NCBI GenBank assembly: GCA_030248195.1
Contig: JASAND010007849.1
Coordinates: 1-64,000, forward strand
Reading direction: 5' to 3'
From: Trissonchulus latispiculum
Lineage: Eukaryota > Nematoda > Enoplea > Enoplida > Ironidae
Length of the DNA stretch: 64,000 nucleotides
Each line of letters opens with the position of its first letter. The stretch's first letter is position 1. Position numbers and translations under genes: made by a program. Positions 26,436 through 57,215 of this stretch are shown here, piece by piece. The notes beneath the pieces were generated by a model. It worked only from the letters and a program-made list of their open reading frames with translations. It ran no database searches and was not told the DNA's origin.

Positions 26436-27107
26436 CTATTTGGGCCGCTGGACCACGGCTGCGTCAACTTGTTCCATAGATGGCTGCAATGGTAAATCCA
26501 ACGGATAAAACCCTGGAAGCATCCTGTGTAACTTGCTTACACTTTCACCAACCTGTTCCGCCCATAGCGAATATGTGGCCGGATGACCGAACCATCTATT
26601 GAGATTGTAATGGATGGTCTGCAAGTCGACCCCTGCCTCCATTACGTAGGATGTCGGCCGTTCCGTCTCACGAATCTGGACTGCTGGACAGGCCTCTCCC
26701 ATTACCATTCCTTTAGGGAGGTCAACAATTTGTAGACACGAATGTAGGTGACCTTCGGCGTCACAGTCAGGACACCAGCCTGAGGAAACACTCCACATGT
26801 TTCAATAGCATCCGGATTCGCTTCAAACAGCATGAACTGGCTCTTCGGTACGGCCAGGCCTCCTGCTATCGTAGCCTTTACCGGCGTATCCTTTTCTCGA
26901 CCAGGGAGCACTCTGACCCTTTACCTGATGCACAATGACCGCTGCAGCCAATGGGATATTGTAAACCACCAATATCCCCTGCAGTTCAGCTGAATTCAAA
27001 AACAACACTCTTCCATAGTATCTGGACATGAAACCACCACCAGGATGAATGCTGTAGCCCATATCATACAAGTCATACCCTATCAGCGTTTGTAACTCCG
27101 GAACCAC
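26436..27107 (-). pseudogene. Gypsy-2 protease-region remnant
   Basis: Overlapping frames carry a segment of the kind IGYDLYDMGYSIHP, which resembles the region after the active site of retroviral-type aspartic proteases (I-G-x-D). A clear D-T/S-G active-site triad was not found, so the domain is degenerate or the active site lies in a broken stretch near 27120. The assignment rests mainly on position between gag and reverse transcriptase. Confidence 0.4.
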
Positions 27108-28398: not shown

Positions 28399-29428
28399 TC
28401 GTTTCCCGAATTGCCACCAGTTCGTTGACCAGCATTGCTTCCACCACCATCACCTCGCTTCCTGAACCCACCACCGCCGCGACCTGATGACAGGAAGCGA
28501 CCCAAACCACGCGTTGCACCACCACCGCCGGACGGGCGTTTCACTTCGAACTGACCAGTGCCGTCCTCCTTCTGTTTCAGCAAGCATCCAAAGAATCTGC
28601 TGTTCACTATTCTGAGCCAAAGTGGGTCGTCACTCCAGAAGGTGATGTTCTTATTGTACACCGGACAATGTGCCTACCTGTGACCAGGTTCCGCGCAGTA
28701 CGTACAACGATTGGACCTGTCCTGATTAGAGGAGGCCTTTCCTGAACTTTCAGTGTTCGCCTGTTGCTCCACCAAGAAGCAGACTTCCTCCGCGTCCAAA
28801 TCTTGCATGTTCGGATCGTCCAATATCTCACAGGCTGCGACCACTTCATCGTCCCAGGTTTGCTGACCTGTTGCCATCGCCTGACCTTGGACGATCGAGT
28901 TTCTGATGTCCTGAAGCTCACGTTTGAGTTCGCGTACATACGCTGGACATTCCTGCTGATCAATGGGCTGAACCCTCTCAGCATCACCAACGCTACAAAT
29001 GGTCTCCATGGGTATTGATTGAGTATCACCATCCTCGACCGCTTCCAAGATACGCACGGCTCGCATGAAGATATCATTAGGCCTGCGATGCTCCCAATTC
29101 TCGGCGTCAGCGAACAAACTGCCACTTTTGCTCGCAATGCCGCTTTGGGTCCTCTAGAGGCCCGCTCCGCCACCTTAAGCTCACGATCCTTCAGCTCGGC
29201 CGTCGGAAAGGCTTTACTGGCGAGGGACCTCAGTTCGTTGAGATAATCCAGGCTCGATTCTGATGCGAGTTGTTTCCGTTCGAAGAATTCCCGAGCATAT
29301 TTGTCTGCCGATTTGGTGGCCGTTTGCCATTTGTGGCCATTTGTATGCCACAACAAGGGCCGTTTGAGTTCAAGCTCGGCACCACTTGCCTCCCAAGTTG
29401 ATTCAAACATCTTCAGCCATGTTGACAA
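28395..29428 (-). pseudogene. gag: Gypsy-2 gag, frameshifted
   Basis: The first frame (29428 to about 29150) gives a capsid-like segment with LDYLNELRSLASKAFP. The signal then moves into the frame 29117-28674, which ends in a CCHC knuckle (CTYCAEPGH...HC) broken by an in-frame TAG after GHR at about 28678. A Gly/Arg-rich stretch of nucleocapsid type follows in the next frame (28661-28395). The order capsid, knuckle, Gly/Arg-rich tail supports Gag. It cannot make an intact protein. Confidence 0.65.
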
Positions 29429-29550
29429 TTTGATTAGTTTTTAGTTAGTTTTGACAATAGGCTTAGTTTTTCTGAGTTGGCTTGAGTTTGGCTTGAGTTG
29501 GGAGGGGGTTTCCTGGGTTGTGGAGTTGGGAGGAGGTTGTGGAGGAGACG

Positions 29551-34536: not shown

Positions 34537-34613
34537 AATGTGGAGGGGGGGGGGGGCGGTGGGGGGGGTGGGTAGGGGGGGGGGGGGGTGCGGTGGGTGG
34601 GGGGTTGGGGGGT

Positions 34614-34656
<43 letters not shown>

Positions 34657-35006
34657 GTGGGGGGGGGGGGGGGGGGAGTTTTGGGGTGTGTATTTTTTTT
34701 TTTTTTGGGAGAGGATTTTTGTTATGTAGCAGGAAGGGGGGAAAAAAAAAAATTAAATTTGGGGGGGGGGCGGGGGGGCGGGGGTGTTTTTTTTTTTGGG
34801 GGGGGGGGGGGGGTTTTTTTTTTTTTTTTTTATGTTGTTGTTGTTTGGGTTTTTTTGTGGGTTTGATTATTTTTTTTTATTTTTTTGGGGGGGGGGGGGG
34901 GGTGGTGGTTTGGTGGTGTTTGGTTGTTTTTGTTGTTGTGGGGGCGGGGGGGGGGGGGGGGGTTGTGTTTTGGGTTGTTTTTGTTTTTTGGTGGTTGTTT
35001 TGGGGT
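34537..35006 (+). repeat. G/T-only low-complexity block, possible assembly artefact
   Basis: Almost only G and T for 470 bases, with G runs up to about 35 and T runs up to about 18. It ends exactly where the LTR of Gypsy-3 begins (35007). The extreme homopolymers look like unreliable base calling rather than biology, and may have erased the expected target-site duplication. Confidence 0.7.
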
Positions 35007-35560
35007 TGTGAAGTTTGACTCTACTGATCTTAGTAAAATGCTGTTGCCTGACTTTTATTCTCTAGGTTAGAACTCGATTACAGGTGAACAAACGTGGTGT
35101 GTGACGCTGGAGCAATGTTCGGTCCTGACCAACTAAAAATCGAGGAAAAGATTACAACGGTTTATTGTAAATTTAGGCAAATACTTGACGACGAAAATTA
35201 GAACAAAACATAAATTTCAGTCACAAAACTATGAACTTGACAAAATACTAAACAACACAAAAATGCCCGGCAAAAGCCGGCTGAGCGACAGGATAAACTT
35301 GACCCAACCAACCAACTTAACAACCCCAAAGATTCGAACCCAAAATTCACACCCAACCACTCTTCATCAAAACTTACACCCACAACTAACTCTGACAAAC
35401 AACCCAATATGGAGGATTACAATTATTAGCTATCCGAACCTACGAATTTAGACAAGAGTAATGCGAAATGATTGAACGTTCAACAAATGAAATGTTATTT
35501 TCACTTAGGCTTAGCAGCTCATGAATAATTTATATCTTTCCTGCCGGTGCTAACTTCACA
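35007..35560 (-). repeat. 3' LTR of Gypsy-3
   Basis: 554 bases with the same ends as the 5' LTR and collinear similarity throughout, with small indels (for example an added AACCAACCAACTTAAC-type segment). Confidence 0.9.
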
Positions 35561-35561
35561 T

Positions 35562-35578
35562 AATACCCCCTCTTTTGG
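35562..35578 (-). other. Polypurine tract of Gypsy-3
   Basis: The minus strand reads CCAAAAGAGGGGGTATTA directly before the 3' LTR start, a normal plus-strand primer tract for reverse transcription. Confidence 0.7.
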
Positions 35579-38445
35579 CCCCGGGCGGCCTCGGACGGGT
35601 CCACTAAGTTAGACAACTTGATAAAAAGAATGTTACTCACAGGTACCTTAGGTACTAGTAAAGATAAAACTTTTGTGAAAATTACGTAAAGATAAAATGA
35701 AACAACTGCGGTGAACATACACCATACCACGGTTGAGCACACAACTTTTTAACATGCTAACCGGCCAACGGTAAAACTACTCGTAACTGAATCGAGACAT
35801 TTTTGACAAACTACTACAAAAACTTACTTACCTACTCAAAACCTACGTAAAATTTTAGATTCCCGCCCGAGTACACCCAGGTACCAAAAGAGTAGGGAAC
35901 ACCGACAGGAAACAGTAACAAAACAAGAACAACCCACGATTGTAAATATTAGAACTGTGGTATATAATTATGACAAATATGTAAATGTAAATATGGCAAG
36001 AAACTATTATGCATAAGACAAAAGACAAAAGAATCGAATATTGTACATGGAATTAGCAGCCAAAATGGAATGACAAGAATTGTACATAACAATGCCAAAT
36101 GAATACGAGATTAGTAGAAACGAAGAAAAATTAGTGTCATCAGGAAATTGTGATATTCGAGGAAAAACAAAGAAAATTTGAACTTCGAAAGAAAACATAA
36201 ACCGTGTAACCAGATTTAGTAGAAAACAAAACAGAAAAGAGATAGTGAAAAACTAACTATACCGACACCGACATTTACAACGGATATACCGAGGTGGCGA
36301 GCGCCCTAACGAAAGAAACAAGAAAAAGCAATCCACTGAACCCCAATTTTAAAATTTTAGTCCCTACGGCTCCCTCCCAACAATCACAACCATTATACTA
36401 GAACCCGAAAGAAATACCAATCACCTAGACATTGATTAAACAACAAGACAAAAATCACAACAGATTTGGGTGGGGGGACAGTGTCACAGGTGTGCATAAG
36501 ATGGGACACGTGCGGTTTACTCCCCAGCACCGCAGACGATGCAATTCCAGACCGTAGACTGTCACTGAGCCACGAGCCCGTCCAGCCGGACCCTACCAGA
36601 TCGCACCGTACCAGGCCTCGAAGGGTCTCCTGTCAAAGTTCACCAAGTCCAACCCAACCAAACCAGGACCAAAGTCAAACGGGACTGGGACCAGGCACGA
36701 ATTAATGGCCAAACAAGCCGTGCACCGCCTGGCCCAGCATCCCCATGGCGGCAGGTAGACCGGAAAAAGTTCACAAAGGCCAATAGGCCACCAGGCAAAG
36801 GCAAAAGGCCCCCAAGCCTTCCCAAAGGCCGGAAACCAGCGACCAAGCCTGACCAAAAGCCGACAAGATGGCAGACGGAAGCAGGCAAAATGAGCCTGCC
36901 CCACGGCAAAATAGGCAGGAGAGCCACCAGTGCCAAACCGACCATGGCACCAGTCACCAAAGACAACCAAAGGACGCAAAGCGCCCCCAACAGTCCAGAA
37001 GGCCAGACCAGGGAGACCAGCCGAGCGAGGCTCCCAAAGATGGAACAGGTGAGCAGGCAAGGCGTGCCCACCGACACAGGAGAATGGCCGGCAAGCCGCA
37101 GGCAAGACACTGGGCCGACCACCAACCCAGATGGAATCAAGGCAAAGGGCGCAGGACGCCCAAAAAGTCCAAAGAAGAGGCCAAAAAGGCCACCAAGCCA
37201 TGGTGCCAATCCACATGGCTACCACACAGAAACATTGTGCGGCCCCAAGTCAAAGCCGACGGCCAACCAGGCCGAAACAATCCCCGGCCGTCCAGTCAAA
37301 CAATCCAAAGACCAGGCCATGGTCAGAGCAGACAGTTCAAGAGGCCTGGCAGGCGGGGAACCCAGTAGGGATCCAGCACCAACAACTACCGACCAGTCAC
37401 GGCGGTACCCAACCGCGCCAGAACCAGCGCCGAAGCAAATGGCCGGAAAATCCAATCCAATCCAGCTGACACTTTTCCTGGGGAGCACACCCGGCACTGA
37501 GGATGGGGGGTCGGCACCGGCATAGCAGACAAAAGATTAGCTAAAACACACAAAAAACAAAAATTAAGGCAATCAAATAAAGCACAGAAGAATCATGATT
37601 AATAAATGGCAAAGTTAAACAAAACAAAATACTGACGAAACATAGTTACAGCCCCACCTATGACTTTAGTAGCTCCAGAGCCAATGGGAGAATCGCAGCC
37701 CCGGTATGCGGAGGAGAAACCCCATAGGCCTGTGCTTATCAAAGAGAATCTCAAGGCTAAACTAAACGAAACGGAATCAAAAAGTAAAAAGAATGTTAAG
37801 GAGCGTGCGGCCCACCTCACCCGGTATGCGGAGACCGGAGCGGCCCGCAACTTAACACTCCAAAAGCGAGTGTGAAAAATGTAGGAGCACCAAAAATTAA
37901 AAGTTGTAAAAATGTTAAAAAGAAAAAGTCCAATCTGCTGTGTGGAATTTAGAAAATCAACGAAAAGCAGAAATTAAAGTTTATTCCAGTAAGAATGTGA
38001 AAAGTCAAACAAGGTATACTCAAGAAGATGAGCTTTTAAAGTACCAAGGAGAAAGATCTATACGTACTAAAATCAAGAAAAAGAAGAAAAAGTTTGAAAT
38101 CGTTTACGAAACTCAAAGAATCCAAAGAATAAAATACTCAGATGAACAAAAGTTTATGAATTAAATCGTAAAAGCAGAGAAAAAGCACGAAATTTATCAA
38201 GGAAATCATCTAAAAGAGTCAAAAGTAGAACGACATGCGTCAAAAATCAAGTAGAATAACCCACACAGCAGATAAAAGTTAAATGTAAAAATAGTAAAAA
38301 GAAAAGAAAACGGAAGAACCCCCCACCCCCCATGGTAAAACAGTAAAGATGAAAGAAAAAGATAAAAAGACTTTTAAGCACCGATTTTTAGCACCAACCC
38401 GTACAGAAAGGGGCAAAAATATACACAGGAAAACTGCATGAGAAC
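35579..38445 (-). other. Long non-coding tail of Gypsy-3
   Basis: 2.9 kb between the second unit and the 3' LTR. 37530-38440 is A-rich on the plus strand. 36470-37530 is GC-rich and strongly depleted of T on the plus strand (A-poor in the element RNA). Long overlapping frames on both strands of that block are explained by lack of stop codons. CCCGGTATGCGGAG occurs twice (37700, 37819). No domain, no Env-like protein. Confidence 0.5.
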
Positions 38446-41400
38446 TTAGGGCGGGACGATCCGACCGATCGCCGCCCGGTGGGCCCGCTGCCTCTCATTC
38501 CAAAGTTCTTCCATTTCACGATTTAAATTTGGAAACAGCTCAGCGCGCAAGATCATCATAACTTTTCCCAACCAGTTGCGATTTTGCTGTTTATGCACGC
38601 GAATAACTTCACTAGTGATCTGATTTGGAGACAAATTGTCAATCTGCTTTTTAGACAAACCAATTCCCCAATACGGGTCACTGGTAGCTTCAACCAGCAG
38701 TCGGCAGCCAGAATCGCGCAAAAAGTCAACAAAATCTGGGCAAGATTTGGCCTTAGCCCGCAGGACTTCAAGCATCACGAACGCGCGAACATGCATATCT
38801 TTGCCCTGCCACAATTTACGAATAACTGAATCAGGTGGCAGCCAACCCAAAATTTGTTCAGCAGCGAATTTGCAATAAAACGGATTCAAATATTGCGCGC
38901 AAGCCTCAGCAGGGGCATGCCAGCAAGCAAAGAAGAAAAGTTTTCGAAATTGGTAAGCTTGCTCAGCTGTCTGAAAGTACAAACCCCACAATTCAACCCA
39001 CCCGTTTGCACCCGGAACCTTTTTCGGTTCAAGACGAAACATATTAGACGCCGGGTCAAAAGCACCTTGAAAACGAGCAATCGGATGAAAATAAGGAAAG
39101 TTAGACGCGCGCATCAAAACATGACCCAAACACTCATCAGTAACCTCCTTTGCCACCTGAACCATTGTCTTGGATCTTTCAGCCCAAACCCTAATCAAAT
39201 CTGCCGACTGCTGGAAACGCGAAAGAGATGGATAAATATTCACAAATGGAAAAAATCGCGAAACCAGATCAGCTAACGCAGCAACTTTATAGGGCGCAAA
39301 ACCAACAACTTGAAAAGACTCAAAAAGAATTTGATCATCGCGCAAAATAGCTGGAAATTTAATCGAAAGTTTCCAATATTCCGGTTCTTCCAATTGAATA
39401 CGATAAGAAGGATGAGACACCGGCTCTAATTTATCCCATGTAATAACAGGGCTTGCATCAGAGAAAAGAGTCTTAATAATGCCAAAATAATTTTCCATCG
39501 CAAAATCAGTCAATGCAAATGGAGCATGTTTCAAATTTCTAAAGTAATTATCCCAATATCGAAAAGAAGTAGTAAAATATGGATTCAAAAGCGAGGGATC
39601 CGATTCTGAAGCAAAATCAGGCAAAGTCACAACTTGCCACTCAAATTCCGAATAAACCCGCAATGGAACTGCCCTTCGATCGTTCAAAATGGCGGACCAC
39701 ACTGCCTGATGGTAAGGTGGATCAATTTCCTGCGGACCCACATACTTAGGAGCCCCTAAAAGGGCACCATCATCGGTAGTGAGAGCAATCGATGGAGGTT
39801 TCATAGACCTGATTTCCCGATCCAGAGAAAACCCACTACGATGCGTAACATGTGGCGGTGGATCCGCAGAGAAACGAGGGACCGCTTTTTCAACCAAGTA
39901 ACGCGCCGAATACTTGTACAAAACTTGCTTCGAATTTGCAGGATGGTCCCAAGGGGCCGCCAAACATTCAAACTGATTATTCAAACTCGCAAAAGATAGA
40001 AAATGTGACTCTGGCCACTGGATCGTGGGAGACGAAGGCAAAGTCGCCGAGTCTCGCAGAGAAAAAGTCTGTAAAGGGATGTCCAATTGCACAGGAGGCA
40101 AATGTTCATCTCTGTGCTGTGGAAAATCGCGTTTAGCGTACTTCGGATCAGTCGAAAGAGGTTGGGAGGCTTCCTGAGGCTCCGCAGATGCAGAAGTCCC
40201 AGGTTGTCCAGATGTGGACGAAGCCTCGTCCGAGCTAAAACGCACCGTAGCACGTGAAGCCGGGACAGAAGAAGAACGAGAAGGGCGATTTGTGCCCGGG
40301 GTAGGAGCAAACATAGGGTCGGGAGTCAATCCCAGACCAGCAGATGGGGTGCCGGCATGCGGGACGCCCCCTTGCTCCGGAAAAGTAGAACCTGGAAAAA
40401 TAATTTGCAAAAGTTGAGTCAAAGAAAAATCAGCACGAGACATCAAAACATAAACAACTTCAATAGCGTCCCACGGAGCTGGATGACCAATCCAGACTGA
40501 CAAAAGTTCCTTAGAAAAACCCAAGGAAGCAAGGAGCGCAAATTGGATATCTGTAGAAATTGGAGGCATGCGGTGCCAAAATGCATCAGAAAACGAAGTT
40601 CTAGCTGCAACGGGTAATGAGCCCAAACCTGGTGTGCGAAAATTTAAATGTGGCATATACCACTCAACTTGTGACTGAGCCGCCTGTTGTAAATTCGGCT
40701 GATTTTGCACGTTCCAGATAGGGACTGTAGGGGAAGGGGAGGGAGAGGTAGGGGCGGACTGGGAGGCGGGACGGGGAAGGGACATACGCAACGGACAACT
40801 CATACGCGGCTGAAAAATAGGTGTAGGCGCCGGCTGATTTCGTAAAAACTGAAAAGAGTCACTGAAAGTAGGAGGGCGCAACACCCCTGTTTGAGTAGAA
40901 ATCACCGGTGAAGAAGTAGACGCAGGTAAATTTAAACGTGGCGGAGCCGGCCAAGCTCCGAGTGGAGCCGGAACCGGCTGCGGCGATGGCTCAACGGCCA
41001 TTTGCCCCGCCAAAGAAAGAGAATCAGACACTAAATTTGCAGGTAGCAAAACTGAAGCATAACGCGGGGGCCCTTGTTCGGCCTGCACCGGCAGAACCAA
41101 CTGAACACAGGGCTGATCTAAATTTACCACTGAAATAGAAGAATTTTCATTCGAATGAAACACTACATCATCCAAAGCAGCTGTCGAAACACTGGTAGTC
41201 GTCGGAAAAAGTTGATCGATAATTTCTTCCTGAGAAAGAGAGGTGGGAGGGGGAGGGGCAGGAGGGGCCGAGGAGTCCTCGGTCTCCATAGGGATAGCAA
41301 CGGAAGGGGCCGGGGAAGGAATGGGGGTGGGGGGAATAATGTTAACAGTAGGAAGAGAAGAAAAGGTAGACGTTTGCGTCGAAAAAGGTTCAGTAAGCGG

Positions 41401-42549
41401 CTGAAAATTTTCAGGACCTAGACCCGGAGTGCTGCAGGCAGCACCCTCCTCGCCGACAACCGCAGCCGGCTCAGGTGGCGCCGAAGGCAAATCCCGCTCA
41501 ATGCGGGACGGAGTCTCCGCACCAGAAGAGCCGACCTGCGATGGCTGAGCCAGCGACGAAGAAGGGCCTACGAACACCGCCGAATCAGAAGGAGACTGAT
41601 TTTCTTCTGCATAAACAACGTGAAAGGCCGCTGCCGGCTGGTTTGACTGCTCAGAAAGGGGGGAGCGGGTAGCGGACGGGATAAGGGGACGGAGAGGGGT
41701 GGGGGGAAGGGACGAGTCCCCAGCTGGAACTTCCTCCTGCGAGGGAGGACGAGACGACGACTCCCATTTTGGGGGAGGCGTTTCCAGTCTGGGCTCATTT
41801 TCTGCATCAGAAGAATTTGAAGAAACATCTAAAATTTCTGAGGGAAGACCCTCTGGCACCTCATGCTGCTCAGCAGCTTTTTCGTCCAATTTGCGCTGCT
41901 CGCGCTCCTTATCCGGTTTCGGAGTTTTCGGCGTGAAAGTATATTCCGGTTCTTCACCGGCCAACTCAATTTGTTGTGCACTCGGCACCAAAACCGGATT
42001 TGGACGATCCCCAACCTTAGTAAACAAATCAGAATTTAGCTTGTCTTGATCAGGTAATAGTTCTAGAGGCGCAGATTTTGACAAAATTTTGACGTCAACC
42101 AATTTTTGTGAATGACGCTTGTCGCCGTCAATATGCGCAATCAAAAGTTCAAACAAAGGTCGAAACACAGGTTCATCCATAATATGTGGAAGCGCCGAAT
42201 TTTCAAGACGTTCCAAAGTATCTCGCTGCGAGACTTGACTCAAAGATTTTGTGCGCTGAAGTAGCTGAAAATGCTCAATACCAAAAGATGGGCACGAATG
42301 CAGCAAACGCTGGACAACTAGAACTAAATCAAGCGCGTCTTTAAGAGCATAAGCAATTTCAGACGGTTTCAGAAAAGACATAAAACCATGCGCCGAAACG
42401 TTTTTGCACAAGCGCCCCGGGTATTTCAAAACATGTTGCTGGAGCCACCCCATAGAAAGGTTCTCATGCAGTTTAGGGGGGGGGAAGACAGCGCTGCTTA
42501 TTTTCATCAAACCAGATATGAGGGCCCCGCTTTGGATGTTCAGGGTCAT
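38446..42549 (-). CDS. Gypsy-3 second unit, part 2: end of exonuclease domain, Pro/Ser-rich linker, C-terminal NADAR-like domain
   Basis: 1367 codons overlapping part 1 by 77 nt. After the C9 run residues 24-85 supply the missing nuclease end: an L-S-M-G-W-L-Q-Q-H-V-L segment like the RNase D/EXD2 helix, and Exo III Y-A-L-K-D-A (Y67, D71), the DEDDy pattern. Its own ATG lies within the overlap, so part 1 and part 2 are probably one product through a +1 shift or lost by a one-base change. Residues 190-850 are Pro/Ser-rich and probably disordered. Residues about 900-1150 look folded but are unassigned. Residues about 1170-1340 resemble NADAR/YbiA (DUF1768): E-Q-A-Y-Q (E1196), a C-x-K-F-A..I-L-G segment, R-x-F-V-M-L-E-V-L-R-A-K and L-V-E-A-T-S-D-P-Y-W-G-I-G (D1291, W1294). 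NADAR enzymes cleave N-glycosidic bonds of ADP-ribosyl/NAD-related or riboflavin-pathway substrates. Confidence 0.7.
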   Translation of the reverse strand: MTLNIQSGALISGLMKISSAVFPPPKLHENLSMGWLQQHVLKYPGRLCKNVSAHGFMSFLKPSEIAYALKDALDLVLVVQRLLHSCPSFGIEHFQLLQRTKSLSQVSQRDTLERLENSALPHIMDEPVFRPLFELLIAHIDGDKRHSQKLVDVKILSKSAPLELLPDQDKLNSDLFTKVGDRPNPVLVPSAQQIELAGEEPEYTFTPKTPKPDKEREQRKLDEKAAEQHEVPEGLPSEILDVSSNSSDAENEPRLETPPPKWESSSRPPSQEEVPAGDSSLPPTPLRPLIPSATRSPLSEQSNQPAAAFHVVYAEENQSPSDSAVFVGPSSSLAQPSQVGSSGAETPSRIERDLPSAPPEPAAVVGEEGAACSTPGLGPENFQPLTEPFSTQTSTFSSLPTVNIIPPTPIPSPAPSVAIPMETEDSSAPPAPPPPTSLSQEEIIDQLFPTTTSVSTAALDDVVFHSNENSSISVVNLDQPCVQLVLPVQAEQGPPRYASVLLPANLVSDSLSLAGQMAVEPSPQPVPAPLGAWPAPPRLNLPASTSSPVISTQTGVLRPPTFSDSFQFLRNQPAPTPIFQPRMSCPLRMSLPRPASQSAPTSPSPSPTVPIWNVQNQPNLQQAAQSQVEWYMPHLNFRTPGLGSLPVAARTSFSDAFWHRMPPISTDIQFALLASLGFSKELLSVWIGHPAPWDAIEVVYVLMSRADFSLTQLLQIIFPGSTFPEQGGVPHAGTPSAGLGLTPDPMFAPTPGTNRPSRSSSVPASRATVRFSSDEASSTSGQPGTSASAEPQEASQPLSTDPKYAKRDFPQHRDEHLPPVQLDIPLQTFSLRDSATLPSSPTIQWPESHFLSFASLNNQFECLAAPWDHPANSKQVLYKYSARYLVEKAVPRFSADPPPHVTHRSGFSLDREIRSMKPPSIALTTDDGALLGAPKYVGPQEIDPPYHQAVWSAILNDRRAVPLRVYSEFEWQVVTLPDFASESDPSLLNPYFTTSFRYWDNYFRNLKHAPFALTDFAMENYFGIIKTLFSDASPVITWDKLEPVSHPSYRIQLEEPEYWKLSIKFPAILRDDQILFESFQVVGFAPYKVAALADLVSRFFPFVNIYPSLSRFQQSADLIRVWAERSKTMVQVAKEVTDECLGHVLMRASNFPYFHPIARFQGAFDPASNMFRLEPKKVPGANGWVELWGLYFQTAEQAYQFRKLFFFACWHAPAEACAQYLNPFYCKFAAEQILGWLPPDSVIRKLWQGKDMHVRAFVMLEVLRAKAKSCPDFVDFLRDSGCRLLVEATSDPYWGIGLSKKQIDNLSPNQITSEVIRVHKQQNRNWLGKVMMILRAELFPNLNREMEELWNERQRAHRAAIGRIVPP

Positions 42550-43573
42550 TCTCCGGAGGGAGTCCCTTGAGGGCCATTCTGCGATAAGTGAAACGGTAAA
42601 AATGATTTATATCAACTAATGAATTTCTGGCATCAATGCCCAAATTTCCGAGAATCCGACGAGCATCGCACAGAGCGTTGACCACCAAAACTGGAAACGG
42701 AGTGTTATAGAGTAAAGGTTGCAACGCATAGCGTATCAATTTCCAGGAGGGAACTTGGAGGTAGATGACGTGAACCATCACCACCGTGAGTCTCAGACCG
42801 GAATCGAACCGGGATTCTAAAGTCGGATTCAGAGGGTCAATTTCTTCACGAAAAGAGGTAATATCTGTAGGTACTGCGAACTGTAAAGTCGTCGCAGACT
42901 GACCCGTAGGGATATCCATCCAATTTTGAGAATGACCCTCAACATCCAAAACAAGAAACCCAGCTTCTTTCGCCCAAAAGAACAAATTTTGTACCTCCCC
43001 CACAAGAGCTTCAATTTCAGTTACAATACAAGTGGCCGTACGTAATTTTTCATCCAGGAAAGTCGCCTGGTGAATTTGATTCAGCCAGTCTTCCCTCCAG
43101 CGTCTGTCGGCAGCTGAAGCGAAATCAATTTTGGGAGGGGGTTTTTCTTCAAAAACAAGAGCTAAATCCCCTAACGAAATGGGGGGTAGCGGTTCTGTGT
43201 TAGACTTCCGCTTTTCCGACCGTTCCCGTTTCCGAGAGCGGCGCGAAGACGCCGATTTTTGTGGACGCTTCGACTTTTGAGATTTCTTAGAAGGGGACGG
43301 ATCTGAAACTGACTCAACGTCTACCAAAACATCTTCAGATGTATCTTTCTCTGAAGGTTGATAGCTCGCATCCGACTCCGAAGTACGAGACTTTTTGGTG
43401 CGCTGAGAGCGACGCAAAGGAATCTGAGAACTAGGGGGGGCGCCCACTTCTGACAACTTTTTCCAGTCGCGGGACGCCCCTTTTTCCTGTAGAGTTTCTG
43501 CCAAGGGCTGTTCGGGACTGGACTCCCGTTCTGATGTTTCCGATTTATCCTGGTGCCTGCGTTTCCGAACCAT
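42473..43573 (-). CDS. Gypsy-3 second unit, part 1: DEDDy 3'-5' exonuclease-like domain (N-terminal part)
   Basis: The frame is open from 43585 but the first ATG is at 43573, giving 366 residues. Residues 1-125 are Lys/Arg/Ser/Glu-rich with several nuclear-localisation-like patches. From about 185 a nuclease fold is suggested: Exo I motif L-V-L-D-V-E-G (D210, E212) followed by L-Q-F-A-V-P, and Exo II motif V-N-A-L-C-D-A-R-R-I-L (D303) followed by G-I and L-V-D-I-N-H-F. These match the RNase D/EXD2/WRN-type DEDD family, which removes nucleotides from 3' ends of RNA or DNA. The frame stops directly after a C9 run (42476-42484); the rest of the domain lies in the next frame. Substrate unknown. 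Confidence 0.65.
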   Translation of the reverse strand: MVRKRRHQDKSETSERESSPEQPLAETLQEKGASRDWKKLSEVGAPPSSQIPLRRSQRTKKSRTSESDASYQPSEKDTSEDVLVDVESVSDPSPSKKSQKSKRPQKSASSRRSRKRERSEKRKSNTEPLPPISLGDLALVFEEKPPPKIDFASAADRRWREDWLNQIHQATFLDEKLRTATCIVTEIEALVGEVQNLFFWAKEAGFLVLDVEGHSQNWMDIPTGQSATTLQFAVPTDITSFREEIDPLNPTLESRFDSGLRLTVVMVHVIYLQVPSWKLIRYALQPLLYNTPFPVLVVNALCDARRILGNLGIDARNSLVDINHFYRFTYRRMALKGLPPENDPEHPKRGPHIWFDENKQRCLPPP

Positions 43574-43585
43574 TTTTGAAGCCAA

Positions 43586-44317
43586 CAGACACTGTGGGAG
43601 ACTACCTGACCCTACACTATGACAAAATCAAGAAAAATTACCACCTGATAGTTTTCCAGAACTGATCCAAAAACAAACCAAATCTGAGCAGGAACCTCGA
43701 AAGGCCTCCTGACAGCTGAACCACACGGAGATCCACCACCAAAAGATAACCAAACCAGCTCTGAAACAAGAAATAGATATAGTGCACTACATGAAAGTGA
43801 AGAAAAACGCCAAATTCATTACAGGAAACAAAAAGATTTAGAGAAAAACAGCTAAAGAAAACTAGAAACCAAAATATAAAGAAAATTTCAAGGAACGAGA
43901 AGCTCAAGGGTACCAAAAGGTACGTATTCAAAAATTTCAAAAATCAGGATATCAAAAATTAGGAAAGTACGTATTGTACAATTTAAAGATTCAACGATAT
44001 GGATTTGAAAGAATGAGAAAAACCACAAAACTTATGAAATTTAATCTAAGAGAGAATACGTATATACGTATACAAGAAAATCTAAGAAAATCTATGAAAA
44101 GGAATTTTATTTACCAAAACAGTAGAAACCAGGTTGGTGCCAAACAATATTACACACGAAAATATAAGCGCCTAAAATAGTAAGAACAAAACAAAGTTAA
44201 AAGCTAAAACAGAGAAAAGGATGAGATCACTCTAGAACAAAAAGCTATACAATGAACAAAAAGACATAGGTGAGGCATACAGACAAAATACAAAAGTACA
44301 AACAATACAATATGAAA
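43586..44317 (-). other. Spacer between gag-pol and the second coding unit
   Basis: A-rich on the plus strand, no supported frame. It could hold a splice acceptor or internal promoter for the second unit; I see no decisive signal. Confidence 0.4.
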
Positions 44318-47300
44318 CTAAGTAAGGAACGGCTTGAGACGATTTACGTGAATTTTCTCAGTAGGGGGGTCCGTTTTTGTAGTAGACTGAATTTCAACAT
44401 TTGGAGGCGCAAGAACTTTGACCACCCGAAACGGGCCCTCGAAGACTGGCAGGTATTTGCGGCTTGCACCCTTTGGAATATTCGCCTTTGCAATATCTTT
44501 CCATACTAACATGCCTTCTTTATAGTCAACTTTCTTAACATTCGCATCATAGTCATCTTTGCGCTTTTTCAAGATTTTCTCCATATGCTCTTTCAATAAA
44601 TCACGCGAAAAACGCAAACGTTTACGCAGATCTTGTACGTAGGACGAGTTGAAGGGTCTAGTTGTTGGATCAGGCATTTTCAAAAAGTTTTCAGAAAACA
44701 AACGAGGATCACGTCCGTGTAAAAGATAATATGGAGACTCTCCGGTAGAGGCATGTGGGGCTGCCCGGTATACGAACAGCACCCAAGGGAGAAGGGTGTC
44801 CCACTCCCGCTCAAAAGCCAACATACATTTGCGTAACATGCCTTTAAGGGTGCCATTGAGTCTTTCGCAAGCACCATTCGACTGTGGGTGATAAGCAGTA
44901 GTACGTACTTTTCGTGTTCCCATAAGTTTACAAAGCTCATCCATAAGAGTAGAACAAAAAGGGGTGCCCCGATCAGTCAGAATTTCGCGAGGGGCCCCAT
45001 GAACGGCGATAATTTGTTCTGCCAAAAGTTTTGCAATAGTGTTGGTCTGTTCATTAGCCATAGCGAAGGCCCACCCCCAACGCGTCAGAAAATCGACCAT
45101 CACTAAAACTTTACAGTGACCCACGGAAGTAGTAGGAGCATGCATGACATCCATGCTGATCCTCTCGAATGGTGCCTCTACCGGAGTGAAAAATTTCATG
45201 TATGCCTGAGGCTTGCGAGGACCAGGGTTGCAAGCCGCACATACCTGGCAGCATTCGAGGAACCGTGTCACATCACGAGACATAGTTTCCCAGTAATATC
45301 TAGCGGCTATTATTCCCATCATTTTAGCTCTCCCGACATGACAACCCCCCAAAAAATCATTATGACATTCCTTAAGGATATATTGACGACAATCATTAGG
45401 GACCACAATCAAACGGATAGCATCAGGTAGGGGGACTCCCTTTTTGTCAGTTTGAAAACGGTATAGCATGTCATTTTCGTAAACGAATTTTGAAGCAGAA
45501 CTACGTACGTACGAGGCCAGCTGTAAATCTTTCGGAAGTTTATCATTTTGCAAAAATTCAATCATAGCAGAAGTAAACGGATCAGCCTTAAGGGCCTCAG
45601 CCCAAATTTCCCTTGCCGCAAGCATCGGAACTGGGTGACCCGGACCATCATCAGGGCCTTCATCATCTAACAGTGCAAAAAGGTATTCTGGAATTTTCGG
45701 ATATTCAGCAAAAACCCCGGCAATGGCAGGCGGATTGCGAGACAATGCATCCGCTGCCCCGTTGACTGAACCAGGTTTTTGAATAACACGAAAACGAAAC
45801 TGTTCTATGAAAGCACGCCAACGGGCCACCCTCCCTTCAGCCGTCTTAGGTTTTGCGGCATCGCCCAGGATATATTCCAAGGCCTGATGGTCCGTGATCA
45901 CATCAAATTTATGTAAAATCAAGTAGTGTTGGAAATAGGAAATCCCAAAAAAGATAGCAAGAGCCTCCAATTCAGTAACAGTGTAGTTCTTTTCAGATGC
46001 ATGGAGGGCTCTGGCCGCGTACGCAACTGGATGAAATTTTTCCTTTTCGTCTGCCTGCTGTAAAATGGCAGCTATACCCTGATAACTAGCGTCAGTAACA
46101 AGAGTAAAAGGTTTCGTAAAATTTGGATAAATCAAAACGGGTGCTGTAATTAATTTTTCCTTCAAAGTCTCAAAAGCAACTTGACAAGCAGAATCCCAAA
46201 CAAATTCAGCACCTTTTTTCAGAAGACGAGTCAAAGGATTAGCAATTTTGGCAAAATGAGGGACAAAACGACGATAATAGCCCGCTAAACCCAAAAAACT
46301 TTGAATATCTTTGACAGATTGAGGCACAGGAAATTGACGAACCACCCGAATTTTGTCAGGATCGGTAGCAATGCCAAATTCTGAAAGAATATGACCCAAA
46401 AAGGCCATTTGTTTACGTGCAAATTCGCATTTTGACAATTTTAGCAAAACATGCTCTTTTGCACAACGTTGAAAAATGTCAAGTAGACGCTGCAGGTGGT
46501 GATTCTGAGTCGGACTAGTAACTAGAATATCATCAATATAAACAATAAACCCTTCCATAATACGATCAATTATCCGTTGGAAGGTACTGGGGGCGTTACA
46601 CAACCCAAACGGCATAACTTTGAATTCATACAACCCCGAATGAGTAATAAAAGCTGTTTTTTCCCGATCCGCCGGGTAGACAGGAATTTGATGAAACCCT
46701 GAGGCCAAATCCAATTTCGAAAAAATGCAATGACCCAAAATAAGTTCAAAAAGCCCGTCAATTCGAGGAAGAGGGTAACAATCTTTCTTAGTAACCGAAT
46801 TTAACTTGCGATAATCAACACAAAGGCGCCAATCCCCATCTTTCTTTGCTACTAGAATAATCGGGGAGGCCCACGGAGACCGAGAGGGTTGTATAAGGCC
46901 CTGCTCCAACCAAGCGGACAATTTCTCGTCTATGATTTTCTTCTGTGCTGGGTTAACTTTGTAAGCCCGAGCACGAATAGGCCGTTTTCCTGGCTCAATT
47001 TCGATATAATGATAGTCAATATCAGTTTTTCCAAAACCGCCTGTAGCGTCCCAAATATCAGGAAAATTTAAAATCATGAGTTTTAACCGCCGCTGATTTC
47101 GACGGGACAAACAACAATCTTTCAAGCTAATTTTTCCGTTCAAAAGAGCACGTTTTGCTGCATCTGCAAAAAGGGCAGTTGCTACCGATTCAGCTGCAGT
47201 CAGAGGGTCAACCTCGACCTCTTCTTCAGGAGTACGTACAATATCCCCGTTCTGAGGGATACGTGAAAAGGCCTCATCAAAAGACAAATCAGTAGGATGA

Positions 47301-50300
47301 TATTTTTCTGTGGTCACTCTATACGTACGGGGCTCGAACCCAGGTTCTCCCGGATGAATCTTGCGACGCAAAAATTTCCGAAACTTTTTAAGCGGAACAG
47401 AAGACACCTGATTGAGGTCCACGCCCTCACCCTGGGGTCCCTGACCAGCAGGGAGCTCAGGGGGAGGCTGAGACTCTGACGCCCAAGACTCTACAATATC
47501 GGAAAACGCTACTGGTACCGTTGGCCAAGAATCTTTCGTTTCCTGAGAAAAATCAACCAAATCGTCACCCGAAAACAAACATGACTGCAAAGTTTTTACC
47601 TCCCCGTCCAAAATTTTGGGGGTGACCACCCCCTCTTTTAGAGGAGACTGAGGCTCAGGAGGGGCCGTAACCCCCTTGGCACACGAAGTCGCTTCCGGGA
47701 TTTTTTCAGATTCATCAAAAATTTCGTTCGGATATAGGGGATCCACCCCCTCTTTTAGTAGGAGGTCCCCTTGAGTAGAATCAACGTCACAATTAAGAAC
47801 CAACGGGTCATCAAAAGGAGAATCAGACGAAAACCCAGTAAACGGAGAACAAATTTGCGGAGGAGGGGTCCCGAGGTCCTCATCAACTATAAACAACATG
47901 TCATCAGTATACGTATCGACATTAACCTGGGCCCTCGTAACCGCCAACGGTACCTCTAGGTTAGGGTCTGTGGCGAAATAGTCTTCAGCCGGGCTAATGG
48001 ACCCCAACACAGTAGCCTTTGACAATTCAACCGGACAATTTGTGGGATTTGCAACCAAAAAATCAAAAATTGTTTCCCGAGGCACAACAATCCCCCCATA
48101 AGGCAAAACACGATTTATATGTACAAAATCATCAAAAGGTTCGAACAAATGGGGAGTCTCGGTCAGTCTTGGGGAGACCCGGGCCTGAGCCCAGACCTCC
48201 GAGGAGGGAGGGACCACCACGTCAACTGCCAAAACCACTGCCAAAACTGTAGAATCCCGGGTATTCCATTCAGCTCTCAATTGATCAGGGGTGAGCAAAT
48301 CGTGGTTCATTGTACCCATATAAACTTTATTCTGAGAAAGAATAATATCCCACGAAAAAGCTTTCATAAAGTCAGTACCTAGCAAAATGTCCCTGTAAAA
48401 ATCGGGGGCTACGTGAAACTGCCACCCGAACTGAATTTGGCCAACTTTAAAAGGCAAAAATGCTTTCCCTGTTAATTTCAAATAATCGCTCCCTGGTGTA
48501 CGTGCTTTGATTGGATCCGGGTAATTAACCACGATTTCTGCGCCCGCCCTGAGGAGACGTTCAAGGCCCCCCGTACTGATAATCGAAATGGACGCTCCCG
48601 TATCTACAATCGCAACCAATTTTTGACCGTTGACATCAATCAGAATTGCTGGGGTGTTCTCACCCGCTGCTAGAACAGACTCAAGGTCAATTTCTGGGAC
48701 ATCCCCCGGTTCTGCGAGAGCTGAATGGCCCATTAGGTCAGAAATTTGCACCACACAATGAGGACTTACCTGCGAGGCTGGTGTAGCCTCTGTTTCTGGA
48801 GGAAGAACTTCCTCGCCTTGGTCCTCCTGGACCCAATTTGTAGCCTCAGCTGGTGCAGGTTCTTGGACAGGTGGTTCGGACGGGGCAGTATAGGGGGAAC
48901 CCGGGCCCGCCAAAATGGGAGAGCCCCCCGCACACCACGAGTCCGACGGCTCAGCTTCATTCATCCAAATATTATTTGAATCAAATTTATTTGGCCATAA
49001 ACGAAGAAAAAGGTCAGTCATATCACCAATGTGCAGACGAATAGCATCAAAATACTTATTCATGAATTCATGAGTCTGACCATGAATAGCTGCCAATGTA
49101 GAAAAATTTCGATGGAGCAACTGAAATTTTTGAGCCACTTGATGTTCTACAGAATCAGCATCAAAAGACAGATTTGCCCCCAAAACCTGTTCCGAAGTTT
49201 CCTCCGGCTGATTTGTGAGGCCTAAACGTTCATAATCGGGCTCAATCTGCAGCATATTAACCGAAAGTTGATTGACCATTTGATTTACCTGCTGAGCCGT
49301 CGGAGGTGGAGCAGTTTGGGGGTTTCTACCCCCTCTTTTAGGCTGGGCCCCGCCCCCTACCGGACCATGAGAAGATGGAACAAAATTTGCATTCAGACAG
49401 GGAGGACCGGAAGCTCTCGCCCCCGCCCCCCGGTAACGCGGCTGACCCGCTTGCAAAGGCACCCGCGGACGCGCCACAGAATCAGGAGCCGCCACACCTT
49501 GTGACTGCCACTGAGACTGCAACAGCGGCCGAGGCTGGCCCTGCGCAGCATGCTGCCACGGAGGCAGATACTGCTGAGGGGCCGCCGCATAACCCGGGGA
49601 CTGAAGCGCCGGGTCATGCTGTGGATAGTATACCGGCTGAGGAGGCATCTGAGGGTAGGCCCCCACCATATCAACTTGCGCCTGAGTATTTTGATTATTC
49701 CTACCTTTATAACCCGGAGGGGCTTTTGAAGGGTCCTTGTCCCAACAGCGATCCGGATGATGCCCCCGCTTGTTGCAGTGACGGCAAGGAGGAAAGCGTT
49801 TTTTCTTTTCTTCCTCCATTTCTTTGAGCTTATCCAAAAATTTTGTCTCAAACCAGTCCTTCATTTCCCGCAGCTCCAGCCTAGTCGCAGGAGTCGAATC
49901 AAGGGGGGCAGCCCCGTCCCTGGAGGAATTCTGGGCGCCAACATGAAAGACTGGGGCAGCAAAAGCTTGTTGATCTGCCAATCCAGGTTTTGAGATCCGA
50001 GATTCCAATTTGTCCAGGATACGTAGAATTTCGTCCAATTTGGGCTCACCTTTTCCGAAATTAGATGCCAAAGCCGTAGTATATTCCGAACGAATGCCAT
50101 CAAAAAGTTGTTGTACGCAGTGCCTGTCCCGATCTGCCTGTGATGGCCAAATTTCCAAGGCTTGAGATTGCAGCTCCGACACGTACTGGCGGACGGTTTC
50201 CCCAGGCTGCTGGACTCTTTGAGCAAAGCGATGGAATTTTTCCGAAACTGATTGTTGAGGCTTCGGGAACTGGGCGGACATCATACGTATGAATTCGTCT

Positions 50301-52163
50301 AATGACTCAACAACCTTAGGACCAACCTTCGAAGCGAAAGTGAGAGCCTTACCAGACAGTTTGTTAAACATCAGACGGGCCCATTGGTCCCTTGGGATCC
50401 CTTGCACAGTAGCTGCTGAAACAAACTGTGGTAACCAATCTTCAAAATAATCAAAAGTCGGCTCAAAACGAGGAATATCATGTAAAATTGCCATATACGT
50501 ACGGTACAATTGAGCATTATGGCGTCCAACAGAGGCATCTGTGGCTTGCATGGTGGCCGGAGTGGGATGAGGTCTCGACCGAGGACGAGCCCCCACTGAG
50601 TGGTCAGTGGCCACCCGACAAACTGCCTGGTCGGTCTGTGCCGAATTTGGAGGCTGTTGGTCCGCCGGTTGTTGAGACGGAGGGGGAGTCTGCTGAGAAG
50701 CAGGCTCTGGCGGATTCAAATAATAGCCATAATTCTGAGGTGTACCCGGCACAGGGTCCGGATACATCGGAGCCAATTGCGGCTGAGATTGCTGAGATTC
50801 AAAATATTGCTGTTGATTCAAATCAAAATACAAATTCGGATCATAATAGCCATACTGAGCATAGTAGTAGTAATTTGGATCATAATAACCATAGCCATCA
50901 GCCTGAGGGCCGCCCGCCTGATACGGCGGAGTCTGCTGTTGCTGAGGCTGCGATCCAGGCACTGCGTGAGAAGTAGATCCAGGATTAAACTGACCAGGTC
51001 CATTCTGTTGGGGAGGCGGCGTATTTGACTGAGCTGGAGGGGGGCCATTTTCCGGAGGAGGGGCCGAAGACTGCGGGATAGTATTTTCTGGCCGCGGATT
51101 CTGCTGAGACTGATTGTGCGTAGAGATCATTGTCGTCTGTCCAGTGCCGTATGAATATTGGGACTGTGGAGAGACTGGAGCTCCCCCTCCATTCGACTCC
51201 GACTGGACATGGCCGGCCACTGAGACTGAAGGACCGGCGTGAGGGGCAGCAGGGGTCGAACCCCCCGCAAGCCCTCCTGACTCTGGTGGAAGCCCAAGGG
51301 AAGCACGCCGCTCCGCAACAAGCTGATCTGTTAATCTGTCGACCATCCCCTTGTAAAAATCTGAAATTTTTTCCAAACGTTTAGGATGTCCACGAGGGAG
51401 CTCACGAATTTCCGGGTCCCGCACGACAGCAGCCGCCGCCGCGAAAATTTCCTCCTCAGATGGTAGCACAGACTGACCCGGGGGAGCTGCCGAACCCCCC
51501 GTTGCCTCCGAAGGAGACGTAATAACAACACACACCTGTTCCAAATCCGCATCCGAAGTTGAATTTTCTCCCTGAATTTCTGGAGTGGGCGTCGGGGGAA
51601 GGGGGGGTTGGGAGGGATTTTGGGGGGTTCGCCCCCCATCCTGCACCATCTGACCGGGAGAAAGAATTGGAGGGCCAAAAGCTTTATTCAACATCTGAGA
51701 ATATGACGGCCGTGGAATTTGCTGTGTATTAGAGGCCGAAGTTTGGGGCTGGGAAGAACCCCCCGCCTGGGTCCACTGGGGGGGTGGACCTCTACAACTG
51801 ACCGGGACTTGAGCCATACAACATGGAATATTTTGATTTCGCCCAGAATTTTCCCCCCAAGTTTGCAAGGGAATCGTAGTGGGGATATAGGGGATCCCCC
51901 AATTTCGGTAGGGCGCTCCCCCCCCGAGTTCCAGGTGGAACCCCGTCTTGGAGGGGCGGATCAGTATATTCCCCAAGTTCACGCGGGTCCCCCCGATCCA
52001 TAACTGGGGCCTGCTCACAACACCTCTGTCGCAAAACTAAATCGTTATACTCGTCCGGGTAATCTAAATTTTGTAAAAATTCAAAAAGCCGTTGAATATC
52101 TTGAAGTCGATCTTCTAAAGCACGAAAAAATTTAGGGTCAAGACCGTCACACTCCTCCAACAT
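44318..52163 (-). CDS. gag-pol: Gag-Pol polyprotein of Gypsy-3
   Basis: The ATG is at 52163. Its frame passes through a C8 run (51918-51925) into the 2566-codon frame that begins without an ATG at 52018, so one base is extra or missing there, or a frameshift is used. Numbering from 52018: Pro/Gln/Tyr-rich N-terminus, capsid-like region about 500-700, CCHC knuckle (CRHCNKRGHHPDRC) near 745, protease D-T-G at 1139, reverse transcriptase with Y-I-D-D at about 1830, RNase H with T-D-A-S at 1976, integrase with HHCC and D2290, D2349, E2385 (exactly 35 residues between the last two), then a GPF/Y module near the end. Protease to integrase is one uninterrupted frame with all catalytic residues present. 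The frame also holds a spacer of about 400 residues between protease and reverse transcriptase, longer than usual. Confidence 0.9.
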
Positions 52164-52171
52164 CTACCACA

Positions 52172-52186
52172 TGACACGGTCGCCAC
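52172..52186 (-). other. Primer-binding site of Gypsy-3
   Basis: Just inside the 5' LTR the minus strand reads TGGCGACCGTGTCATG, two bases after the LTR end. TGGCGACCGTGAC-type sites are common in Gypsy elements. The primer tRNA was not determined. Confidence 0.7.
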
Positions 52187-52187
52187 A

Positions 52188-52728
52188 TGTGAAGTTTGAC
52201 TATACTGATCTTAGTAAAAATGCTGCTGTCTGACTTTTACTCTCTAGGATAAGACTAAACTACAGGTAACAACAGTGGTGTGTGACGCTGGAGCAATGTT
52301 CGGCCTGACCAACTAGAAATCGATGAAATGATTACAACGGTTTATTGTAATTTAGGCAAGAACTTGACGACAAAATTAGACAAAACATAAATTTCAACAC
52401 AAAATATAAACTTTGACAAAATACTAAAAAAAACACAAAAACGCCCGGCAAAAGCCGGCTGAGCGACAAAGGTAAATTTAAACAACCCCAAAACAAGCAA
52501 CCCAAGAATTCGACCCAAAGTTCGCAACCCAACCATTCATCAAACTTACACCCACACTACTTCTGACCAACCCAATATGGAGGACTACAACAATTAGCTA
52601 TCCGATCCTACGAATTTAGACAAGAGTAATGCGAAATGATTGAACGTTTGTCAAATGAAATGTCATTTTCACTTAGGCTTAGCAGCTCATGAATAATTTA
52701 TATCTTTCCTGACGGTGCTAACTTCACA
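52188..52728 (-). repeat. 5' LTR of Gypsy-3
   Basis: 541 bases, TG..CA ends within the short inverted repeat TGTGAAGT/ACTTCACA. It aligns along its whole length with 35007-35560. It contains the conserved block CAATATGGAGGA and a GCCGGC-type stem (GCCCGGCAAAAGCCGGCTGAGC). Transcription would run leftward from here. Confidence 0.9.
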
Positions 52729-56726: not shown

Positions 56727-56880
56727 GTTGTGTTATCAGTTCTGAGGTATAGAATTTCATAAAAGGATTGATATTATGTACCTGCAACGTAAACATTGAA
56801 AAGTTTGTGGGATTTGAAAGGGGACTAAATTTTAGTCTAGTACGTATGCATTCATCCCTTTGGGAGACTGCAATGAAGTA

Positions 56881-57215
56881 TATGTCGAAGCCTAGTAATC
56901 AAATTGGTCATTTAGTTAAATGACTAAACATTTTAGCCATTTAGTCAAATGGCTAGCCCAGTCGTAAAACGCAGCGTGTTTGACTACTTGGCCAAAAGAC
57001 TCGCAGTATTTAAGCCATTTAGTAAAATGACCAGCAGCTTGTAGCCTAGTTTTCAAATGACAGTTGGCGACTATTTATTGACGATCATCATATCAGTCTT
57101 TTGGCCAAGTAGTCAAATACGCTGCGTTTTACAACTGGGCTAGCCATTTGACTAAAGGGCTAAAATGTTTAGCCATTTAACTAAATGGCCGATTTGACTA
57201 CTAGGCTTTGACGTA
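56881..57215. mobile_element. Foldback MITE with about 120-bp inverted arms
   Basis: The left arm starts TATGTCGAAGCCTAGTA and the right arm ends with its inverted match; TA flanks both sides (56879-56880 and 57216-57217). The arms match for about 120 bases (including TTTAGCCATTTAGTCAAATG and GTAAAACGCAGCGT) with under ten differences. A TA duplication suggests Tc1/mariner-type mobilisation. The loop is about 90 bases. Confidence 0.75.

Follow-up and report, generated by a model that had tools for sequence, protein, structure and literature searches.

A DnaQ-like exonuclease has already been named among the accessory domains of long terminal repeat (LTR) retrotransposons (PMC6338049). In bdelloid rotifers, the LTR elements Juno and Vesta and the Athena elements possess a third gene that is DEDDy-type exonuclease-like and common to unrelated retroelements (PMC5408684). 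A conserved NADAR domain has likewise been acquired by diverse retrotransposons, among them an Ectocarpus Gypsy element (YbiA-family NADAR) and Tx1 of Crassostrea gigas, a long interspersed nuclear element (LINE) that carries it in its first open reading frame (ORF) (PMC12477816). Here we describe a Ty3/Gypsy element of the nematode Trissonchulus latispiculum whose second coding unit, hereafter unit 2, ends in a NADAR domain and begins with what is, judged from its sequence, a probable DEDDy-type exonuclease fold. The element occupies positions 35007-52728, minus strand, of the window, the 64,000-nucleotide stretch of contig JASAND010007849.1 that we analysed. The two domains are in print separately, as the DEDDy ORF3 and the Gypsy NADAR, which makes the statement of a first-pass annotation of this DNA that Gypsy elements normally encode neither out of date (PMC5408684, PMC12477816). 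Its further remark that it knew of no described Gypsy lineage with the pair agrees with our literature search, in which no report of an element with both exonuclease and NADAR was found, most subscription journals, preprints and Repbase lying outside its scope.

Unit 2 starts about 690 bases after the gag-pol ORF, in the position of env (ORF3), and spans about 1,700 codons, which in the window copy are distributed over two frames.

42473..43627, minus strand: first ORF of unit 2, 384 amino acids (aa), with a basic N-terminus (ATG at 43573) and ExoI and ExoII-like motifs
38446..42606, minus strand: second ORF of unit 2, 1,386 aa, with an ExoIII-like motif, a proline-rich middle and a C-terminal NADAR
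38536..39018, minus strand: NADAR domain, residues 1197-1357 of the 1,386-aa ORF (PF08719, E=1.6e-10, 42.0 bits against a cut-off of 35.1)
42935..42952, minus strand: ExoI motif VLDVEG in the first ORF, assigned by eye
within 42473..43627, minus strand: ExoII-like motif NALCDARRIL in the first ORF, assigned by eye
42331..42351, minus strand: ExoIII-like motif YALKDAL in the second ORF, assigned by eye
42476..42484, minus strand: C run where unit 2 switches frame in the window copy, inside the exonuclease-like domain

What was first annotated, a stretch of some 1,700 codons behind the integrase with NADAR at its end, is present, much beyond what chance would give, with PF08719 above its cut-off. 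The same family was matched by an intact relative (E=1.1e-10, 42.4 bits) and by a member of a second family (E=4.3e-12, 47.0 bits), again above the cut-off of 35.1 bits, and the window NADAR also matched phrog_1017 (E=1.9e-12). Seven residues (E1556, K1563, E1647, W1654, G1655, N1685 and G1688, numbered as in the L003 protein) show no variation across the six aligned units (P0004, P0005, P0010, P0011, L016 and L024), and the second ORF of the window carries the same motifs. The catalytic residues of the NADAR of P. nicotianae are E43, K50 and E125 (PMC11543638); judged by motif and spacing, E1556, K1563 and E1647 correspond to these as their predicted counterparts. A search of the PDB with the NADAR piece returned nine rows, the best of which was 8bau, a NADAR (E=0.016), followed by PutA (E=0.048) and by entries unrelated by name.

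For the N-terminal domain, the ExoI DxE, ExoII D and ExoIII YxxxD motifs were located by eye in P0004 and P0005. The Asp and Glu of ExoI and the Asp of ExoIII are invariant in all six aligned units, and the ExoIII Tyr is absent from L015 and L024. The related unit of locus L032 (P0010) matched EXD2 with E=0.0096, and the five PDB rows retrieved at E<=5 by a six-sequence profile (A2) were without exception entries named as DEDDy exonucleases, two each for NrnC and WRN and one for EXD2 (E 0.031-0.26). Single-sequence searches of the PDB gave no row for P0002 and one chance-like row for P0003 (E=0.024), and no Pfam family was matched by the first ORF of unit 2 in the window. The DEDDy exonuclease-like start proposed in the first-pass annotation is thus backed by motifs and weak profile hits, somewhat better in the shorter related units than in this family, and a Pfam match for this protein did not appear.

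The frame change at the C run recurs in part of the family. Among loci L001-L010 (L001 being the window), three break exactly there (L001, L002 and L004), L009 breaks slightly earlier, and six are continuous, L008 among them with stops. Within the two coding units, G/C runs are longest at 42484 and at 51925, the latter near the gag frame change placed by eye, and homopolymer error or slippage is therefore likely. Programmed frameshifting is unnecessary, since six loci are continuous; yet the break recurs in three, where it may reflect shared ancestry, slippage, sequencing error or a regulated shift.

Unit 2 is a conserved accessory gene under purifying selection in a Ty3/Gypsy lineage, and no one-off capture. 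In the genome (733.8 Mb, 21,732 contigs), its second ORF had at least 47 matches on at least 34 contigs (34 of 2,606 candidates scored). With the intact L003 protein as query, unit 2 proved fully open in three copies of the same family, family 1 (C2983, C5245 and C8755; frames of 1,721-1,727 aa), and in two copies of a second family (C611 and C15388; 1,695 aa, 48-49% identity). Dispersed copies of the integrase gave at least 134 scored matches in the genome, 28 of them at >=93% identity and so assigned to family 1. Twenty of these 28 places are followed, 1.7-9.0 kb further on and without change of contig or strand, by a unit-2 match (pairing limit 13 kb). Two of the remaining eight were looked at: the contig of C8611 stops 880 bases past the integrase, and the 701 bases sampled downstream of the integrase in C14688 contain no unit-2 match. 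A unit-2 homologue also follows integrases of 88% (C611) and 75% (C2134) identity, the latter homologue being 25% identical (E=1.2e-14) over a 1.1-kb read that ends before the NADAR part. The unit is thus shared with other copies and families, and neither of the outcomes named as speaking against the first-pass annotation, its lack in other copies or its capture from the host in one copy only, came about outright.

Outside the genome, searches of a set of 5.8 billion proteins gave no match to P0002 at the thresholds used, whether queried whole or by its C-terminal part (best 7,999 and 7,003 candidates, respectively). The L032 unit (P0010) found P0012 and P0013 among the best 8,000 candidates, with alignments over 21% and 19% of its length; both bear PF08719, and the match is presumably over the NADAR. 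A scan of viral contigs with the A3 profile yielded 58 stretches that fit a pattern, none of which was confirmed.

The ratio of nonsynonymous to synonymous divergence (dN/dS) was calculated by the NG86 method for seven sequences: the whole unit of L003, L005 and L006, the second ORF of the window, L002 and L004, and L011 of the second family. All were picked for open frames from 11 loci (L007-L010 excluded), a choice that biases dN/dS downward. Within the family, dN/dS of unit 2 was 0.066-0.169 in 15 of 15 pairs, below the value of 1 that the first-pass annotation had named as a check for conservation. The NADAR region belongs to the most constrained parts, with 0.056-0.10 in four within-family pairs. 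Between family 1 and L011 the ratio was 0.26-0.30 in all six pairs, at a saturated dS of >=1.64. Between-family dN was about 0.50 for unit 2 against 0.089 for the 291-codon C-terminus of the integrase, a five to sixfold faster protein change, which is as expected for accessory or conflict genes and no proof by itself. In a class of NADAR sequences of about 180 aa, dN/dS was 0.12-0.42 in 10 of 10 pairs.

NADAR is not confined to this lineage. A search of the genome with PF08719 gave at least 150 matches, those listed all lying over the cut-off (150 of 2,478 first-look candidates scored), and we read 20 of these loci (L013-L032), selected for varied frame length. Seven contain an exonuclease-NADAR gene, seven are Maverick/Polinton-like, three have NADAR beside YqaJ ORFs, and L022, L026 and L027 fall in no class. 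In L015, L019, L024 and L032 the exonuclease-NADAR gene directly follows an ORF for reverse transcriptase, RNase H and integrase, identified by Pfam in L015, L019 and L032 and by 91% protein identity in L024. The genes that follow Gypsy pol in these other families encode 689-731 aa (that of L019 is split), and the pol of the exonuclease-NADAR-bearing elements is 37-38% identical to the window pol. The exonuclease-NADAR genes of L016, L017 and L025 lie in a common 7.5-kb stretch in which no reverse transcriptase ORF was found (by Pfam for L016 and L025, by 97% DNA identity for L017); the units of L015 and L016 share 39% identity. The Maverick-like class rests on ATPase or integrase matches or on DNA similarity: L013, L014, L018, L023 and L030 have Pox_A32-type ATPase and/or integrase-chromodomain matches, and L029 and L031 resemble these five in DNA. 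In L020, L021 and L028, the ORFs next to NADAR match YqaJ and viral alkaline exonuclease.

Several of these loci also contain a kinase-like ORF 3' of the exonuclease-NADAR gene, recognized by Pfam in L016, L019 and L032 and by similarity in L024 and L025.

L016, 5798-6952: kinase-like ORF
L019, 6122-7258: kinase-like ORF
L024, 3148-4224: kinase-like ORF
L032, 8041-9426: kinase-like ORF

L016 and L025 have a second kinase-like ORF upstream of the gene. The closest PDB entries to the ORFs of L019 and L016 are Tribbles homologs, which are pseudokinases (E=7.5e-22 and 3.2e-22), and by eye neither shows the customary HRD and DFG motifs. The window copy contains no kinase-like ORF.

The remainder of the window element has the anatomy of a Gypsy element, with direct LTRs enclosing a gag-pol in which protease, reverse transcriptase, RNase H and integrase follow in this order.

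52188..52728, minus strand: 5' LTR, 541 bp, with TG...CA ends, starting TGTGAAGTT and ending AACTTCACA
52158..52187, minus strand: putative primer binding site region directly 3' of the 5' LTR, recognized by position and TGG, TGTGGCGACCGTG...
44318..52036, minus strand: gag-pol ORF, 2,572 codons from stop to stop, scanned with Pfam
48362..48640, minus strand: aspartic protease (PF13975, E=6.2e-7)
46385..46849, minus strand: reverse transcriptase (PF00078, E=1.9e-31)
45797..46198, minus strand: RNase H (PF17919, E=2e-32; PF17917, E=1.2e-31)
44885..45403, minus strand: integrase, H2C2 zinc finger and rve core (PF17921, E=6.8e-14; PF00665, E=5.6e-13)
43761..43766, minus strand: putative splice acceptor TTTCAG, pyrimidine-rich, assigned by eye, upstream of the unit-2 ATG
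43641..43647, minus strand: donor-like site CAGGTGG, assigned by eye, CAGGTGGTA
35561..35585, minus strand: polypurine tract region preceding the 3' LTR, CCAAAAGAGGGGG
35007..35560, minus strand: 3' LTR, 554 bp, likewise with TGTGAAGTT at its start and AACTTCACA at its end

Gag probably starts upstream in a different frame, at the ATG at 52163, the frames joining by eye near the G run at 51925; in the C611 relative the corresponding gag start lies within one frame. No dUTPase was present among the 12 Pfam families of the window gag-pol (E<=0.1), and no Env-type fusion glycoprotein follows the integrase, NADAR being the sole Pfam family in the intact unit 2 (E<=1). The acceptor and the CAGGTGGTA donor-like arrangement recur in L003 and L006, and L011 of the second family has TTTAG for TTTCAG. 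Unit 2 is thus probably translated as one protein from a spliced mRNA. Such an accessory mRNA has a precedent in Cer1 of C. elegans, where the accessory gene product CERV is made from a spliced mRNA and exports the genomic RNA, and the putative splice sites of unit 2 fit this scheme (PMC10309623). The unit-2 proteins begin with MVRKRRHQ or MPRKRKTP, a basic N-terminus that possibly targets the nucleus, and their long proline-rich middle is probably disordered.

Both LTRs, the primer site, the purine tract and the domain order first annotated are all in place. The borders, which had been called firm, are made less secure by the following three features of the window copy. No target-site duplication is visible at its ends (TAAGG before, ACCCC after). 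The flank 3' of the element (34540-35006) is poly-G/T and resembles a sequencing or assembly artefact. Finally, the LTRs are 87.1% identical over 560 columns and differ at 12.8% of 538 ungapped columns (32 transitions and 37 transversions; Kimura two-parameter (K2P) distance 0.141). In 200 simulations of neutral decay at half the LTR distance, gag-pol acquired a mean of 20.3 stops (minimum 11) and the second ORF of unit 2 a mean of 10.9 (minimum 2), against none observed in either. Because this divergence is too high for stop-free frames, the LTR pair perhaps does not stem from one simple insertion; the copy could be recombinant or misjoined, its LTRs could have been unlike at insertion, or their sequence could contain errors.

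The window contains further features outside this element. Between unit 2 and the 3' LTR, the plus strand has an open frame of 318 aa (36569-37525). A second, decayed Gypsy pol occupies 21549-29440 on the minus strand; its reverse transcriptase is 45% identical to that of the first element, and it contains no unit-2 match (tblastn with P0002-P0005, P0007 and P0009-P0011, E<=0.01). An ORF at 906-2195, which has a zinc knuckle and weakly matches a Ty3 capsid, is perhaps the gag remnant of another element, an ORF at 55149-56732 matches the DEG/ENaC amiloride-sensitive sodium channel family (PF00858), which points to an animal host, and 339 bases at 56879-57217 align with their own reverse complement at 79% identity.

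NADARs strip ADP-ribose from guanine in DNA (PMC11543638) and in RNA (PMC11833690), and phage NADARs have been proposed to shield phage DNA against host transferases (PMC11125620). The same logic, by analogy, suggests that unit 2 protects the nucleic acids of its element, and we give an even chance to such a protective or counter-defence role, in which both domains would act on the same molecules. On this view the NADAR would clear ADP-ribose off guanines in the element's cDNA or RNA, whose 3' ends the exonuclease-like domain would bind or trim. Splicing, the enzyme activities, their substrate and the existence of a host ADP-ribosylation defence are what we infer here. Counter-defence, already guessed at in the first-pass annotation, is plausible and gains support because other element kinds in the genome carry NADAR, which hints at a host defence that tags nucleic acids. 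A broader proposal, which we advance tentatively and regard as doubtful, is that the animal ADP-ribosylates guanines of mobile elements as an innate defence, and that several classes of element unrelated to one another (YqaJ-bearing elements, Maverick-like transposons and at least two Gypsy lineages) came to carry NADAR erasers, by separate acquisition or by exchange, as a means of surviving it. Because an RNA stage is missing in Maverick-like elements, DNA would be the common substrate, likeliest as single-stranded cDNA or replication intermediates. Such a system would be the eukaryotic equivalent of the conflict between DarT and NADAR, with a writer other than DarT.

A number of observations weigh against the protective role. 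The Pfam exonuclease family PF01612 was not matched by the two window pieces up to E=10, nor by the two intact relatives P0004 and P0005 up to E=1, and the shorter related units of L016 and L025 score just under its cut-off of 23.6 bits (22.1 and 23.4, respectively); the units of L032 and L015 had no match at E<=1, and L015 has His at the position of the ExoII Asp. The profile searches called for in the first-pass annotation were thus positive for NADAR and negative for a DEDD family in this protein. The structure predictions that it had also called for yielded models of poor quality (AlphaFold; mean predicted local distance difference test scores of 47.4 for the NADAR and 42.5), and when the low-confidence NADAR model was used in a fold search, nothing in the PDB matched at E<=0.001 and the best 50 rows contained no NADAR. 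The DarT family had no match in a six-frame, intron-blind search of the genome, and no writer was identified; DarT was dropped as a candidate host writer on this result. Among the matches listed, 14 of 35 unit-2 places have no integrase on the same contig, some of them lying at contig ends. Saturation of dS in all but one pair makes selection unmeasurable in the zinc-finger-NADAR, the YqaJ-linked and the shorter exonuclease-NADAR classes. Lastly, conservation fits a defence role and an ordinary role in the replication cycle alike.

Such an ordinary role is the basis of the main rival explanation, in which unit 2 encodes a helper of replication or export, comparable to CERV, and its folds mainly bind nucleic acids or nucleotides and are no anti-defence enzymes. 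The basic N-terminus and long low-complexity middle would suit such a protein, as would the loss of the ExoII aspartate in L015, and besides the precedent of a spliced accessory gene in Cer1 (PMC10309623) there are the DEDD folds of Maelstrom and EXD1, stated to be inactive RNA binders (PMC5408684). However, the catalytic residues of the NADAR are invariant in all six units and its region is among the most constrained, and we consider this explanation somewhat unlikely. That the NADAR serves small-molecule metabolism to the benefit of the element, acting on NAD/ADP-ribose or on riboflavin intermediates, is improbable: the match to TIGR02464, a riboflavin-intermediate N-glycosidase, has E=4.5e-9 but reaches 36.7 bits of a family cut-off of 73.7, and both the fusion to a nuclease-like domain and the several types of carrier element indicate nucleic acids.

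That Gypsy, Maverick-like and YqaJ-bearing elements of a single genome all have NADAR could also mean that the exonuclease-NADAR protein is a weapon directed at viruses or other elements that share the cell (superinfection exclusion). Since those NADARs that have been tested act as erasers (PMC11125620, PMC11833690), the domain suits protection better than attack, and we hold this to be very improbable. The missing target-site duplication and divergent LTRs of the window copy might finally point to a host gene captured once, or joined to a Gypsy element in assembly. This has next to no probability against at least 47 matches on at least 34 contigs and a recurrent order after the integrase in three families. 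Single capture is refuted for the family by its recurrent copies, and doubt stays for the ends of the window copy alone.

The role of NADAR in eukaryotes, animals included, has been called unclear (PMC11125620). Its retention by several kinds of mobile element in one genome makes this role testable, as the elements show which molecules are worth protecting. Among the known systems, the bdelloid ORF3 resembles unit 2 in its DEDDy-type domain and differs from it in three respects: NADAR goes unmentioned in the main text that describes it, its intragenomic variation is mostly neutral compared with a within-family dN/dS of 0.07-0.17 for unit 2, and a dUTPase is present in three of four bdelloid lineages, in contrast to the window pol, in which none was seen (PMC5408684). 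The NADAR of the Ectocarpus element lies at the N-terminus of Pol and that of Tx1 in ORF1 of the LINE, with no exonuclease mentioned in their description (PMC12477816); here, NADAR ends a separate gene after the integrase, in an animal. The giant Burro Gypsy elements of planarians are likewise oversized animal elements with accessory domains, which are MATH/TRAF, BCL-2, dUTPase-like and env domains in frame, NADAR not being mentioned in the account of them (PMC6431247). In DarTG1 (DarT1-NADAR) and in phages, NADAR likewise takes part in conflicts between mobile elements and hosts, as an eraser of guanine ADP-ribosylation (PMC11543638, PMC11125620). Unlike unit 2, which belongs to a eukaryotic retroelement in a genome with no DarT match, DarTG1 has its DarT present. 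A Gypsy element of Phalaenopsis is also large and has an extra ORF for a modification eraser, the AlkB m6A demethylase, with a proposed link to host surveillance; it differs in modification and enzyme and in being from a plant (PMC9289625). If the protective role of unit 2 is true, reversible ADP-ribosylation of guanine would, next to m6A, be a nucleic-acid modification that hosts and transposons contest.

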